Source: Desulfitobacteriaceae bacterium
Lineage (GTDB): Bacteria > Bacillota > Desulfitobacteriia > Desulfitobacteriales > Desulfitobacteriaceae
NCBI GenBank assembly: GCA_028704155.1
Contig: JAQVLN010000002.1
Location: 1 to 55,014, forward strand
Length of the DNA stretch: 55,014 bases
Direction of reading: 5' to 3'
Part shown: positions 21,422 to 28,904 of the stretch, one piece after another
Layout: each line of letters starts with the position of its first letter
How positions within the stretch are numbered: the stretch's first letter is position 1
Program-made: the position numbers and the translations under genes
Notes under the pieces: generated by a model
What the model was told of the DNA's origin: nothing
The model's database searches: none
What the model saw: only the letters and a program-made list of their open reading frames with translations

Positions 21422-24400
21422 TTGAAAAAGCCAGGGGGAGTAGTTTCCAGGTTAAAAAAAGCGTTTTCATACACGCTTAGCTTTATGTTTATGTGCGGCT
21501 TGCTGTTTGGCGGGATATGGGCGGATAGTGCCTTTGCCAGTGATGTCGTTCCGCTATCCTGGGAGGGAGTTGGTACTGCGGCTAACCCTTATCAAATATC
21601 GTCACCTGAACATCTTGATGGAATGCGTGAAAAGATGGCCGAAAACGGAGGTACTGTCCACTTTATTCAGACAGAAGATATAGACCTGAGCGGATACGAT
21701 AATTGGACTCCCATCGGAGACAACACTAATCCCTTTAAAGGAACCTACGACGGGAACGGCAAAAGCATATATAATCTTAACATCAATGACGATACCTCAA
21801 ATTATGTTGGTTTATTCGGATATGTCGGTGCATCTGGAACGCTGAAAGACATCAAGCTGGAGAACGTCAACAGCAGTTCTGCCAAAAGAGATCCTAATGT
21901 AGGTTTGGGTGTGAAGATTGGCGGCTTGGTTGGGCAGCTGGACGGTGGAACAATATCCGGTAGCAGCGTTAGTGGTAATGTATCAGGCAGCGAATTATAC
22001 GCAGAAGCAGGCGGTCTGGCCGGTCATTCAGATAATGGGACAATCAGTGATAGTCACAATGCCGCCAGCGTTAATGGAGAGTATGCGGGCGGTCTGATCG
22101 GTCGTACACAAACCGGTTCCATCAACGTTGTCAACAGTTACAATATAGGTGCTATAAGCGGATGTTATGTAGGTGGAATAGTCGGCTATACATATCAAGG
22201 ACCGGTCACCATAACCGATAGTTGTAACCAGGGGACTGTTCTGGCAAGAACGGACAACGCTATTGCTGGTGGTCTGACAGGGCATTGTTATCAAGGGTCA
22301 GTCACCATTAATAGTAGTTATAATGAAGGAACGGTAACCAGTGATAAAAGAGCGGGCGGTTTAGCCGGCCATATGTACAGCGGAGTAATAACTAACAGCT
22401 ACAATACGGGCACTGTATCCGGAACTAATTATGTGGGTGGCTTGGTCAGCTTTATAGATACAGCCGGAGAAATCATTAACAGTTACAGTACAGGTAGTAT
22501 AGAAGGCGGTACTACAACAGGGGGATTAGTCGGGCAAGGCGGTACTGTCACCAACAGCTATTATGACCAAGACACCTCCGACCAAAGTGATACAGGTAAG
22601 GGAATACCCTTAACCACTGCCGAGATGAAAGCGCAGGCCAGCTTTGCCGGCTGGGACTTTACCCAGGTATGGAAGATTGCCGAAGATATATCCTATCCAA
22701 CTTTGCGGTGGCAGCCCTGGACAGATGATGAAACCATTTTTGCAGATGCTTATGCTCTCACCTGGAATACGATCAAAGGCGAAAATACTGACCAGGATAA
22801 TATCGAAAAAGACCTTGAGCTTCCGACAACCGGTGCACAAGGCTCAACCATTACCTGGAGCACTGATCATCCTAACCTGATAAATACCGATACCGGTGTC
22901 GTTACAATGCCGGATGGAGATACAGCCATTACATTGACAGCCACCGTAAGCCTGGGGGAAGGCATGTCGGTACAGAAAGATTTTAATCTATTAATAATAG
23001 GAATATTCAAAGGCGAGGGAAGCGAGGCAACTCCTTACCAGGTTGAAAATGCTGTCCAACTAGCAGAGATAGGGTATTTACTTAATAGCGAAGATATTCA
23101 CTTTATTCAGGCAGAAGATATAGACCTGATTGGATATGAAAACTGGATTCCCATCGGAGACAGCAGTAATCCGTTCGAGGGAACCTACAATGGGAATGGT
23201 AAGACCATATTCAATTTGACCATTGATGACAATACTCTGACGGATGTGGGATTATTCAGTTTTGTAGGTTCTTCCGGGAAACTGGAGAATATTACCTTAG
23301 AGAATGTGAGCATTGATTCAAGCAAAGAAGATGCACATGTGGGTGGTCTGGTTGGTACGAACCATGGTGCTGTAAGTGGTTGCAGCAGTGCCGGAAACGT
23401 ATTTGCTAACGCGGATAATACTTTGACAGCCTATGTAGGGGGACTGGTTGGTCTTAATATTTCTGGAGGAGTTGTAACCAACAGCAGCAGTAGTGGCAGC
23501 GTAAAAAGCAACAGGAGCAACGGTTCTGCCGGCGGTCTTGTGGGAACATGTAATGGGATTATAAAAGATAGCCATAACATAGCTAAGGTACTCGATGGTA
23601 AATTCACCGGTGGTCTGGCCGGTCTTGCGGATAACGGTACAATCAGCGATAGTTACAATATCGGTGATATCAGTGGTCTTTATGCAGGTGGCTTAACCGG
23701 TTATATAGATAACGGAGAACTTATCATTGTCAATAGTTATAATACAGGTGAAATAAATGGAACTAATGTTGCAGGTGGATTAAATGCCTACAATGTTGAT
23801 GGTCATATCTCCATCACTGATAGCCATAATACAGGTAGTGTTACCAGCACAATTTATTCCGGTGGTCTGCTCGGTTATACCAAAGAGTCTGGAACTCTCC
23901 ACATCACCGGTAGCTACAATACCGGCAACATAAGGGCGAGTAGATATGTGTCCAACCTTACTGCGGAACTGGCTGCCGGCGGCCTGGTAGGATGTACCAA
24001 ACAGGGCGCATCCGCTGAGATTAAAAACAGCTATAACGAGGGGTCTGTAACCTGTCGAAACGAAAGTTCTAGTTACAGAAATTTGTGTTATGCCGGCGGC
24101 TTGGCGGGCTATTTGGGTAGTGAAAACTCAATAGATAACTGTCACAATAAAGGCAATGTATGGGGCACCAAAATAGCAGGTGGTCTAGTCGGCCAAGGCA
24201 TAGTGTCCATCACCAAAAGCTACAATACAGGGGTTGTTGAAGCATGGGATGCAGGTGGTTTACTTGGTGACTGTTTTTATGAGAATAATTCTGTCTTAAG
24301 AACCGTCATAAACCAAAGCTTCAATACAGGTACCATAAAAGGTGGAATAATGGCAGGAGGCCTAGGAGCCTGTTTCATAACACCAGAAATCAATTTTGCA

Positions 24401-24424
24401 CGTCTTAAAAGCCACGATATATAG
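21422..24424 (+). CDS. GLUG-repeat secreted protein, 5' part of a MITE-interrupted gene
   Basis: TTG start at 21422, eight bases after aggagg. Residues 1-39 look like a signal peptide ending near DSAFAS. Two modules follow, each with a beta-rich lead (PYQISSPEHLDGMREKM...DLSGYDNWTPIGD), many GLUG repeats (GGLVG... S.N.G), a closing TWKI/TLRWQPWTDDE-type segment and an Ig-like segment (STITWSTDHPNLINTDTGVV). The true frame continues to about 24364, where a 131-bp element enters; the last 20 codons and stop at 24424 are element sequence. Without it the gene runs to 28904. The protein is probably cell-surface or matrix adhesin-like. Confidence 0.85.
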   Translation: MKKPGGVVSRLKKAFSYTLSFMFMCGLLFGGIWADSAFASDVVPLSWEGVGTAANPYQISSPEHLDGMREKMAENGGTVHFIQTEDIDLSGYDNWTPIGDNTNPFKGTYDGNGKSIYNLNINDDTSNYVGLFGYVGASGTLKDIKLENVNSSSAKRDPNVGLGVKIGGLVGQLDGGTISGSSVSGNVSGSELYAEAGGLAGHSDNGTISDSHNAASVNGEYAGGLIGRTQTGSINVVNSYNIGAISGCYVGGIVGYTYQGPVTITDSCNQGTVLARTDNAIAGGLTGHCYQGSVTINSSYNEGTVTSDKRAGGLAGHMYSGVITNSYNTGTVSGTNYVGGLVSFIDTAGEIINSYSTGSIEGGTTTGGLVGQGGTVTNSYYDQDTSDQSDTGKGIPLTTAEMKAQASFAGWDFTQVWKIAEDISYPTLRWQPWTDDETIFADAYALTWNTIKGENTDQDNIEKDLELPTTGAQGSTITWSTDHPNLINTDTGVVTMPDGDTAITLTATVSLGEGMSVQKDFNLLIIGIFKGEGSEATPYQVENAVQLAEIGYLLNSEDIHFIQAEDIDLIGYENWIPIGDSSNPFEGTYNGNGKTIFNLTIDDNTLTDVGLFSFVGSSGKLENITLENVSIDSSKEDAHVGGLVGTNHGAVSGCSSAGNVFANADNTLTAYVGGLVGLNISGGVVTNSSSSGSVKSNRSNGSAGGLVGTCNGIIKDSHNIAKVLDGKFTGGLAGLADNGTISDSYNIGDISGLYAGGLTGYIDNGELIIVNSYNTGEINGTNVAGGLNAYNVDGHISITDSHNTGSVTSTIYSGGLLGYTKESGTLHITGSYNTGNIRASRYVSNLTAELAAGGLVGCTKQGASAEIKNSYNEGSVTCRNESSSYRNLCYAGGLAGYLGSENSIDNCHNKGNVWGTKIAGGLVGQGIVSITKSYNTGVVEAWDAGGLLGDCFYENNSVLRTVINQSFNTGTIKGGIMAGGLGACFITPEINFARLKSHDI

Positions 24425-24495
24425 TGTTATAAATATGCCATTTGTACTAAATACGGACATCAACTTTCAGTGAAACTACTTTTGCAACAGTCTCC
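24365..24495 (+). mobile_element. 131-bp MITE with TA target duplication
   Basis: The element is flanked by TA (24363-24364 and 24496-24497). Its ends are imperfect inverted repeats: ggagcctgtttcataa at the left and, on the other strand, ggagactgttgcaaaa at the right (13 of 16 match). It has no coding capacity. Removing the element and one TA joins GGL to VAYARNS and restores one frame from 21422 to 28904 (7,350 bases, 2,450 codons). A TA target is typical of IS630/Tc1-mariner MITEs; the parent transposase is not in the window. Confidence 0.88.
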
Positions 24496-24497
24496 TA

Positions 24498-27400
24498 GTG
24501 GCATATGCCCGTAATTCAGTAGATGTTACCGATAGTTATAATAGAGGTGGAACAAGTGTTATCTTCACATCAGACTATACCTGGGAGGGTGGTCTGGTTG
24601 CTCATATGACGGATAGATCTACAGTCACCAACAGTTATAGCGCAGCTACGCTAATTAAGCGAAATGGATCTAATTTTGGTGGATTGTTTGGTTATGGTGC
24701 ATTTGCAAGTTTTAGTCATATCTACTTTGATAAGGATGTCGCCGGAACATCAAATCCGGGATATGCTGGTGGTGGAACGGCATTATCTACCACTGTAATG
24801 AAAACGATGGTATCCTATACCAATTGGGACTTTGACAATACGTGGAAGATTATTGAAGGTGAGACATATCCCATCCTTCAGTGGCAGCCATGGAATGACC
24901 AAGAAAAGACAGTAATAGATGCCAGGGCTTTGGACTGGGACAGTATAAAGGGTGAGAATCGTACCCTCGACAATGTCATAACCCACCTTAATCTTCCGAC
25001 AAGCGGAACAGAAGGGTCGACCATTGCTTGGAGCACTGCTAGTGAGTTGATAGATGTCCAAACAGGATGGATTACAAGGCCGGATGAAGACACAAATATT
25101 ACTTTGACAGCAACGATAAGCTGTGGAGAAGCAGTACCGGAGCTGGTGGAGTTTGTCCTGACCATAAGGTCAAGTACCGCAACCTACTCCGTAACCTATG
25201 ATGCTAATGGCGCTGCAGGAACGCCGCCGGAAATAGGCGACATGGAGGCAGACGAAGAATTTGAAGTTGCTGATAATCCCTTTACATACACCTATAAAGA
25301 TTTTAAAGAATGGAATACGGAGCCGGACGGTACCGGCACAGTCTATGCAGCAGGCGAAACTATTGCCATGCCGCCTTATAATCTGACCTTATATGCCATT
25401 TGGGAAGTGGTTTGGGAAGGATATGGCAGCAGTGAGCAGCCATATCGGGTTGTTTCGCCTGCCCACCTCGATGCTCTGCGGGATAAAATGAACGAAAATG
25501 GCGGCGCTGTATACTTTATTCAGACAGAAGATATGGACCTGACCGGATACGATAATTGGACTCCCATAGGAAGTAGCGACAATCTCTTTAGGGGAACCTA
25601 CGACGGGGATGGCAAGACCATCTCCAACCTGACCATCAATAACAGCACACTTCCAGAGGTGGGGCTTTTCGGGCATGTGGGTGCTGCCGGAAAGCTGGAG
25701 AATATGGTTTTGCAGAACGTGAGCATCATTTCAAACAAGGCAGGTTCATATGCCGGCGGACTGGTTGGCAGGAATCAAGGTGCCATAAGTAATTGCAGTA
25801 GCAGCGGGCAAATTTCCGCTAATGCGAATAATACACAGTTAGCGTATGCTGGCGGATTGGTCGGGCAAAACGTAGCAGGGGGAAGCATAACCGGCTGCAG
25901 TAGCAGTGGTAGTGTAAAAAGCAACAGAAGCAACGGCGCAGCCGGAGGCCTGGTGGGCACTTGCAATGGAACTATTGAAGATAGTCATAATACAGCTGAG
26001 GTACTTGATGGAAGACATGCCGGAGGCCTGGTCGGTTATACATCAACCGATGGTCTCACGATCAGCAGCAGTGACAATACAGCTAACATTAACGGACTCT
26101 ATGGCGGCGGTCTGGTGGGTTACACTCAATCCGGGGATGTCTTGATTTCCGATAGTTGCAAAACTGGTGAAATCAACGGAACCAATGTTGCCGGGGGCTT
26201 AAACGGATACAATGTCACCGGGGACATCACCATTACCGAGAGCTTCAATACCGGCAATTGTACCACTAATATTTATGGCGGCGGCTTGGTTGCTTATATT
26301 TTAGATAACGGATCTGTCACTATTACCGGGAACTATAATACGGGAAACATAAATGCAAATGATCACGGTGGCGGTTTAGTAGGGTTCACTCGGCAAGACA
26401 ATTCGATTACCATCACCGACAGCTATAACGAAGGTGAGGTAATCTGCACTAATCGTGCAGGGGGTTTAGTTAGCTATCTACGTAATGGCGACGAAATTGG
26501 GAATAGCTACAATAGAGGTAGCGTCCAAGGAGGAACTAGCGGCGGATTGATTGCTGATAATAATGGCGGTACTGTCTGGGGCAGCTATTATGACCAAGAA
26601 ACCTCCGGCCAAAGTGATGAGGGTAGGGGAACACCTTTAACCACTGCCCAGATGAAGAAGCAGGCAAGCTTTGGGGACTGGGATTTTGCAGAAACCTGGA
26701 AAATCGTCGAAGATGGAACCTATCCAATTCTCAAGTGGCGTTCTTTCACCGACGATGAAATCATTGATGCATTCCATTCGTTGACAGATTGGGACTATAT
26801 TAAGATTAATAATTATGCACCCGATAATATAACGGGGGAATTTAGGCTTCGTCAGGCTATAGCTGATGAAGTATCAATTACTTGGAGTGTCGAGCCTGTC
26901 GACCTAATAAATACCGAGACGGGAGAGGTTACAAGACCTGCAACGGATGATACACGGGTCACTTTGACAGCCAGCATAAGTCTGGGAGAAGACAGAATAG
27001 AACGAACAGATTTTGAGCTTCTAATTAAGTCCAGTTTACTGTTCTACACATTAACCTTTGATGGTAACGGAGCAGAAGAAGAATCACAGACGCAAGATGT
27101 AGCCCCTGATGAAGTAATTGACATTCCATATAGTGAATTTTCTATACCTCACATGAGAATCAAGGAGTGGAATACCAAATCGGATGGTACTGGCGAAAGC
27201 TATACCGGAGAAACGCTAACCATGCCGTCCTATGACTTAACTCTATATGCCATCTGGGAGTTGGTCTGGGAAGGTGATGGCAGCTCCGGGCAACCGTATA
27301 AAGTCATTTTGCCCGAACACCTTGATGCTGTGCGGGACAAGATGAACGAAAACGAAGTTGTTCACTTTATCCAGATAGTGGATATCGCCCTTACCGGCTA

Positions 27401-28904
27401 CGAAAACTGGATTCCCGTAGGAAACAACAATAAACCATTTACCGGTGTTTACGATGGTGATGGTTATAGCATAACAGATCTGGTTATAAATCTATCCGGA
27501 CAGGATAATGTGGGTCTGTTTGGCATTGTTAGCGGTGGAACGCTGAAGAATGTGCATATAAAAAATGCCCAAGTTACCGGAAAGACCAAAGTGGGAATTC
27601 TGGTCGGATTTCTTAAGGGCGGTGGTCGCCTTGCCAATTGTACAGTGATTGGAACGGTAGACGGCGCAAGCCACGCGGGGGGCTTAGTTGGGGATGTAGA
27701 GAATAATTTAAGCAATATTATAGAAGATTGCGGAGCCGCAGTCCAGGTCACCGCCCCGGGCGACTATGTAGGCGGATTGGTGGGAAATAACCGGGGCACA
27801 ATGAATCGCTGTTACAGTACCGGCGATGTCTATAGTAGTAATGGCGCATACATTGGCGGTCTGGCCGGTGATAACTGGGACGGCCACATTAAGGACAGCT
27901 ATGCCACAGGTAACGTCACCGGCAGAAGTAATGTTGGCGGTTTGGTTGGCTGGCATGGCTACAGCGGAACTGAAATCAGGAATTGCTATTCAACCGGTCA
28001 GGTAAGGGGAGCTTCTGCGGGAGGACTAATCGGTGTCAATAGCTCAGGGTCAGTACTTAACAGCTATTATAACCAAGAAACCTCCGGCCAAAGTGATACG
28101 GTTAAAGGAACACCTTTAACCACTGCCCAGATGAAAGCGCAAACCAGCTTTGTTGACTGGGACTTTGTAGATACATGGAGAATCACCGAAGGTTTTTCCT
28201 ACCCCAGCCTGCAGTGGCAGCTTTTGACAGACGATGAAAAAATAACTTCAGATGCCAAAGCGATCAGCTGGGACAGCATAAAAGGGGCCAATGGTGAAAT
28301 GGACAAAGTGACGGAAAACCTCAATCTTCCGCATACTGGAGCGGAAGGCTCAACCATCACTTGGAGTGCCAACCCTAGCGGATTTATAAACACCGACAGC
28401 GGAGAAGTCACAAGGCCAACCGGTGCAAGTGAAACCGTGACCTTGACAGCAACCATCAGTAAAGACGGGGGAACAAGTCAGACAAAAACTTTTGAACTTA
28501 CAATAGTGTCCACCAACTTTGAAGAGGATGGTTGTCTGGTGACCTATCAAGGTGCCCAAAAAAGATTTAACGATGATAGCAATACTTATGACATTCGCTT
28601 TATTGCCACCATAGACACCTTAGATGCAAAAGAAGTCGGTTTTGTTTTCTCGAAATCAGAGCAGACGCCGACCAGAGAGAATGCTGCTGTGCAGGCAACA
28701 ACTACAGTATATACCTCTGTAACAGCGGCAGGTTTAACGGTTACGGCTGAAAGCCTGGGGGGGACGTATATCGTTGCCTGCACGGTTACCGAAATTCCGG
28801 AATCTGACATTGAGATCCAACTCTATGTGAGAGCTTTTTCAACAGTGGGAACGGAAACAAAATACACACCAGTGACGATGGTCACTGTTAACAGCTTGCC
28901 TTAA
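24498..28904 (+). CDS. GLUG-repeat secreted protein, 3' part of the MITE-interrupted gene
   Basis: The frame holds 1,468 codons from an ATG created after the MITE, but the natural gene joins the part starting at 21422. It contains the end of module 2, an Ig-like segment (EGSTIAWSTASELIDVQTGW), a Listeria-Bacteroides (Flg_new) repeat (YSVTYDANGAAGTPPEIGD...TLYAIWE), module 3 of GLUG repeats, another Ig-like and Flg_new pair, module 4, and a C-terminal beta domain with TYDIRFIATIDTL. There is no LPXTG or S-layer anchor, so it is secreted or held by the repeats. It has no usable ribosome site of its own after the insertion, so this part is probably not translated. Confidence 0.85.
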   Translation: MAYARNSVDVTDSYNRGGTSVIFTSDYTWEGGLVAHMTDRSTVTNSYSAATLIKRNGSNFGGLFGYGAFASFSHIYFDKDVAGTSNPGYAGGGTALSTTVMKTMVSYTNWDFDNTWKIIEGETYPILQWQPWNDQEKTVIDARALDWDSIKGENRTLDNVITHLNLPTSGTEGSTIAWSTASELIDVQTGWITRPDEDTNITLTATISCGEAVPELVEFVLTIRSSTATYSVTYDANGAAGTPPEIGDMEADEEFEVADNPFTYTYKDFKEWNTEPDGTGTVYAAGETIAMPPYNLTLYAIWEVVWEGYGSSEQPYRVVSPAHLDALRDKMNENGGAVYFIQTEDMDLTGYDNWTPIGSSDNLFRGTYDGDGKTISNLTINNSTLPEVGLFGHVGAAGKLENMVLQNVSIISNKAGSYAGGLVGRNQGAISNCSSSGQISANANNTQLAYAGGLVGQNVAGGSITGCSSSGSVKSNRSNGAAGGLVGTCNGTIEDSHNTAEVLDGRHAGGLVGYTSTDGLTISSSDNTANINGLYGGGLVGYTQSGDVLISDSCKTGEINGTNVAGGLNGYNVTGDITITESFNTGNCTTNIYGGGLVAYILDNGSVTITGNYNTGNINANDHGGGLVGFTRQDNSITITDSYNEGEVICTNRAGGLVSYLRNGDEIGNSYNRGSVQGGTSGGLIADNNGGTVWGSYYDQETSGQSDEGRGTPLTTAQMKKQASFGDWDFAETWKIVEDGTYPILKWRSFTDDEIIDAFHSLTDWDYIKINNYAPDNITGEFRLRQAIADEVSITWSVEPVDLINTETGEVTRPATDDTRVTLTASISLGEDRIERTDFELLIKSSLLFYTLTFDGNGAEEESQTQDVAPDEVIDIPYSEFSIPHMRIKEWNTKSDGTGESYTGETLTMPSYDLTLYAIWELVWEGDGSSGQPYKVILPEHLDAVRDKMNENEVVHFIQIVDIALTGYENWIPVGNNNKPFTGVYDGDGYSITDLVINLSGQDNVGLFGIVSGGTLKNVHIKNAQVTGKTKVGILVGFLKGGGRLANCTVIGTVDGASHAGGLVGDVENNLSNIIEDCGAAVQVTAPGDYVGGLVGNNRGTMNRCYSTGDVYSSNGAYIGGLAGDNWDGHIKDSYATGNVTGRSNVGGLVGWHGYSGTEIRNCYSTGQVRGASAGGLIGVNSSGSVLNSYYNQETSGQSDTVKGTPLTTAQMKAQTSFVDWDFVDTWRITEGFSYPSLQWQLLTDDEKITSDAKAISWDSIKGANGEMDKVTENLNLPHTGAEGSTITWSANPSGFINTDSGEVTRPTGASETVTLTATISKDGGTSQTKTFELTIVSTNFEEDGCLVTYQGAQKRFNDDSNTYDIRFIATIDTLDAKEVGFVFSKSEQTPTRENAAVQATTTVYTSVTAAGLTVTAESLGGTYIVACTVTEIPESDIEIQLYVRAFSTVGTETKYTPVTMVTVNSLP

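Follow-up and report, generated by a model that had tools for sequence, protein, structure and literature searches.

Two adjacent open reading frames, opening at 21422 and 24498 of the window (the whole 55,014-nucleotide stretch of the Desulfitobacteriaceae bacterium contig analysed here), both encode GLUG repeats, and a short sequence with inverted ends lies at their boundary. The locus raises the question of whether these frames are one gene split by a mobile element and, if so, where that element inserts, how recently it arrived and what moved it. We consider it highly probable that 24366–24494 is a non-autonomous MITE related to the IS1182 family, inserted at CTAG and splitting a giant GLUG gene in the course of a recent burst. 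Annotators should treat the open reading frames at 21422 and 24498 as the two parts of a single interrupted gene.

The interrupted gene and its insert

The features of the locus are as follows.

21422–24365, + strand: 5′ part of the gene (GLUG/aBig_2), with TTG start, AGGAGG upstream, secretion-signal-like N-terminus and about 981 native residues
24362–24365, no strand: left CTAG, target-site copy 1; CTAG flanks 33/33 copies
24366–24494, + strand: MITE body, subfamily A, with the GAGCCTGTTTCATAACACC end on the left; 33 intact copies of the same length in its own genome
24366–24384, + strand: left terminal inverted repeat, GAGCCTGTTTCATAACACC; 13/16 against the right end, counted from base 24365
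24422–24424, + strand: TAG stop inside the MITE, ending the 5′ half of the gene
24476–24494, − strand: right terminal inverted repeat; consensus GAGCCTGTTGCAAAAGTAG on the − strand, equal to the left end of the putative IS1182-type element
24495–24498, no strand: right CTAG, target-site copy 2; flanking in 33/33 copies, with a single CTAG/CCAG at empty sites elsewhere
24499–28904, + strand: 3′ part of the gene (GLUG, aBig_2, List_Bact_rpt), in frame once 133 bp are removed

The TTG at 21422 is preceded by AGGAGG nine bases upstream and by an in-frame stop just ahead; a start at 21452 was discarded because the codon there is TTA. As it stands, the 5′ frame runs into 19 element-derived residues and terminates at TAG. 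Excision of 133 bp (element plus one CTAG) yields 7,350 nt, or 2,450 codons, with the sole stop at the end, so the sequence-only reading was right that a MITE splits this gene and that removing it restores the frame. The restored junction, GGLVAYARNS, falls inside a GLUG motif and matches GGLVAYILDN of a sister module at 26280, as that reading had also noticed. The Pfam Glug profile aligns across the junction in the restored peptide only (profile positions 1–26 of 28), at 11.4 bits, below the Pfam cut-off of 20.5, which is set for a whole protein. Both halves contain GLUG motifs, atrophied Ig domains and List_Bact repeats, and the product is predicted to be a giant surface or secreted protein. 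Since the net gain of 133 bp is not divisible by three and stops lie within the element, the protein is truncated after about 981 native residues; we infer loss of its function.

The interval 24366–24494 is a short non-coding MITE with terminal inverted repeats. Its 129-bp body has CTAG on either side, and its span can be counted as 129 bp plus a 4-bp CTAG duplication or as 131 bp plus TA, with a net insertion of 133 bp in both cases. In the window copy 13/16 bases of the inverted ends match (GGAGCCTGTTTCATAA / GGAGACTGTTGCAAAA), and its right repeat reads GAGACTG where the consensus is GAGCCTGTTGCAAAAGTAG; the left repeat matches more closely in the copy of a sister genome (GAGTCTGTTGCAAAACTCC). 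The 129 bp hold no coding sequence and matched no Rfam family, the search for structured RNA gave z = −0.85 on the + strand and −1.95 on the − strand, and no outward promoter or terminator was found. These ends and the lack of coding, together with many dispersed copies sharing the same ends, bear out the initial identification as a MITE.

Comparable proteins in relatives from the family have unbroken frames of 1,939–3,481 codons at 31–42% identity, a level at which they cannot be called orthologues. The genome of Peptococcaceae bacterium UBA2264, which belongs to the same genus, contains no match to the GLUG gene. The empty-site allele that the sequence-only reading had proposed to look for was sought but not found, and there is no orthologue among the compared genomes.

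Copies, target site and age

The element's own genome comprises 2.26 Mb in 185 contigs. BLAST of the element against it returned 45 matches (E = 5.5e-69, mostly 97–99% identity), and a two-ended pattern search recovered 33 copies with both ends intact and unrelated flanks, all exactly 137 bp from CTAG to CTAG. Counted strand-wise, this amounts to 66 pattern matches (33 places) versus 0 for a reversed-pattern control, far more than chance would give. Absence of any other copy would have refuted the sequence-only reading; with at least 33 intact ones, that refutation failed decisively. About 13 further copies stop at contig ends, at 120–127 bp; contigs break inside the repeat, as in short-read assembly, and for this reason the genome probably holds more copies than the 33 intact ones. 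Such fragmentation, with at least 13 contigs ending inside the element, is what lends some colour to an assembly artefact in which the repeat was wrongly bridged into the GLUG gene. We regard this as exceedingly improbable, as the window copy has private differences at positions 55 and 130, and its two flanks are one gene joining in frame at the same CTAG as all copies.

The copies fall into subfamilies A and B, about 88% identical to each other. Subfamily A has 24 copies, 19 of them letter-identical to the consensus; in subfamily B six of nine are identical, and the three that deviate are mosaics with A sequence (L015:609, L022:1368 and L058:1501, where B bodies carry tips or segments of the A type). 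The window copy belongs to A and differs from its consensus at two positions, 55 (A>G) and 130 (G>T). At the latter it has the B letter, which may reflect conversion. An extra full-length A copy at C114:13291–13427 (L216) has an altered right tip, AACCCTCTCCTAG, identical to the right tip of the insertion sequence (IS) described below. Together with the mosaics, it suggests exchange or conversion between copies.

Among 101 genomes (own and relatives) the element occurs in two, its own and that of UBA2264, which has one copy, 84% identical. One copy in the sister genome versus dozens of near-identical ones here points to a recent burst in the present lineage. Searches of plasmid and phage records gave no element match. 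Named genomes gave 28 exact tip matches, which were taken as chance, the sister genome excepted, because only there is the partner tip present; eight tip matches in viral contigs, likewise without a partner tip, were treated in the same way. By these sequence comparisons the MITE family appears new, recently active and restricted to the genus. The proposal that the GLUG-gene insertion is recent is correct when measured against the divergence from the sister genome and against decay of the gene; with two differences versus none in 19/24 A copies, however, the window copy does not rank with the newest insertions.

Each of the 33 intact copies is bordered by CTAG at both ends. In 22 of the 25 non-nested copies the base immediately preceding the left CTAG is T or C, an excess; the bases beyond CTAG otherwise differ. 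At L004, L015 and L022, two elements lie head to tail with one CTAG common to both, as expected if the element inserts into a CTAG beside another. Two comparisons provide empty sites. At C155:2683 the own genome reads ...atcttacctttttttccttgccgtgt-CTAG-element-CTAG-cacttccgt..., and its counterpart in the sister genome, L171, reads ...atcttaccttcttttatctgtcatgt-CCAG-cacctccgg...; this pair was read by eye, the automatic alignment having put the gap elsewhere. The second site lies within the IS: its copies on C41 and C171 read TTTAAACTAGCCAAGGG, with one CTAG where the C105 copy, reading MITE-CTAGCCAAGGG, holds the element. The flanks of C107:14429 lie about 320 bp apart in the own genome versus 229 bp in the sister genome.

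The target is therefore better read as CTAG than as TA: all copies are flanked by it, nested copies share one, and empty sites are single. The duplicated flank claimed by the sequence-only reading stands, while TA as its full extent does not, and we infer that insertion proceeds by duplication of CTAG rather than TA. We found no preference for inverted repeats beyond CTAG, as flank complementarity shows no excess (70 observed versus 66.6 expected, sd 6.8). Targeting of the IS1272 kind was dropped, there being no wider inverted repeat around the insertion sites. In the window CTAG is about six-fold rarer than base composition predicts (34 observed versus 200 expected). Intergenic sequence has 16 CTAGs in 13.1 kb and open reading frames 16 in 42.0 kb, roughly a three-fold difference in density that may partly account for the mostly intergenic position of the copies. 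With six CTAGs besides the insertion site, the GLUG gene is a comparatively rich target.

A survey of gene context covered 29 copies with enough flank. Besides the window copy, four of the 29 sit in recognisable genes, named here from motif reading, not profile search, and in each the halves continue in frame across one CTAG. One encodes an ABC-transporter ATPase and is interrupted just after LDEPTAG; in a second, for a Nudix protein, the break falls within the Nudix box (GGYVDHGEQIHEAVKREM / ETGLKAE); the other two encode a PiT-type phosphate permease and a protein with the metallo-beta-lactamase fold. The clean break, repeated independently in four more genes, argues strongly for an insertion at the GLUG locus.

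One may ask whether the insertion is instead a reversible switch, in which precise excision to one CTAG would bring back expression of the giant GLUG surface protein in some cells of the population (phase variation). The insertion is exact, the remainder of the 2,450-codon frame is undecayed, the target is a surface repeat protein and the element family was recently active, all of which would suit a switch. However, recency explains the undecayed frame equally well, no mixed or empty allele was seen, and the other copies are mostly intergenic, as with ordinary MITEs, so we consider phase variation very unlikely. The insertion into the GLUG gene is a clear-cut and well-supported, yet ordinary, gene disruption.

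The likely mover

An IS with the left tip CTAGGAGCCTGTTGCAAAAGTAG is cut off at the ends of contigs C11, C70, C90 and C91; this tip is identical to the MITE right-tip consensus at 23/23 positions, CTAG included. The right end of this IS begins C41, C171 and C154 and finishes TAGTTTTGCAACCCTCTCCTAG; the MITE left tip matches it at 16–19 of 23 positions, depending on the subfamily. The IS copies break at contig ends and none is in one piece, so an intact transposase cannot be claimed. The tips alone match between the MITE and the known parts of the IS, most of whose interior is unassembled, and relatedness is accordingly claimed for the ends alone, not an origin of the MITE from the IS through internal deletion.

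C105 holds an internally shortened IS copy encoding a 58-residue transposase piece, which also matches Pfam DDE_Tnp_1. The piece matches NF033551 at 7.3e-12; being a fragment, it stays far short of the cut-off score. Of the transposase relatives that turned up in other genomes of the phylum, two (L142 and L135) have CTAG-flanked ends, CTAGGAATCTGTTCGG / CTAGGAACGTGCTCGG, as inverted pairs, and match NF033551 over most of its length (6e-61 and 2e-40), although all NF033551 matches, these full-length relatives included, score below the curated 270-bit cut-off. For each of the three transposase sequences, NF033551 scores higher than any other family. The mover is likely an IS of the element's own genome, putatively of the IS1182 family, and we propose that this local IS mobilises the MITE.

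A mobile MITE driven by another transposase, for example an IS5-like or an IS630-like one with TA target, is improbable in our estimation. It would accommodate the absence of a whole IS from the assembly, a MITE interior unlike the IS, a subfamily A left tip that differs from both IS tips (16–17 of 23) and the weak scores of IS5-family models on the IS piece. It would not account for a 23/23 right tip common to MITE and IS with CTAG flanks too, for the same tip type in full-length IS1182-like relatives, or for NF033551 topping the scores of all three transposase sequences.

Two other transposase genes, on C108 (L085, G000:C108) and C23 (L087, G000:C23), are IS1182/IS5-like; the C23 gene has a MITE copy on either side. 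Both were dropped as partners, as the tips do not bound either. At L029/L060 (G000:C105:1–660), a MITE lies within the 3′ end of an IS1182-type copy, directly followed by the internally shortened IS copy; this arrangement likely represents insertion of the MITE into its own putative mover.

With the IS1182-type IS as mover, its transposase would bind the tips common to IS and MITE (CTAG followed by GAGCCTGTTGCAAAAGTAG) and insert the MITE at the palindromic tetramer CTAG, leaving CTAG on both sides. The MITE multiplied, probably in a recent burst in its own lineage, to at least 33 intact copies, one of which entered a CTAG within a GLUG motif of the giant secreted repeat protein and truncated it.

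Comparison with known elements

The local IS and its full-length relatives have tips of the CTAG|GA..CTGTT type, as does the MITE, and their transposase sequences score best with the IS1182 family (NF033551); unlike members of this family, the MITE encodes nothing. IS1272 of the IS1182 family replaces inverted-repeat targets and does not duplicate a short site (PMC5678879), in contrast to the CTAG found on both sides here. Palindromic targets are reported for some members of the IS1182 family (PMC5678879), and CTAG is a palindrome. In the literature searched, target sites of the IS1182 family are detailed for IS1272 only, and no IS1182-linked MITE was found.

Prokaryotic MITEs are exemplified by Chunjie, which disrupts a phosphate-uptake operon, MITEAba12 and Correia (reviewed in PMC10969869). 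The present element resembles them in being short and non-coding, with inverted ends, tens of mostly intergenic copies and occasional gene disruption. It differs in that its copies are unusually uniform, with one length and 19/24 of the main subfamily identical, and in its presence in two genomes only, both of one genus. The family is documented here with pairs of occupied and empty sites and a likely IS1182-type partner, and adds to these examples a MITE of great uniformity that amplified recently and keeps strictly to a 4-bp target, in a barely studied Clostridia lineage.
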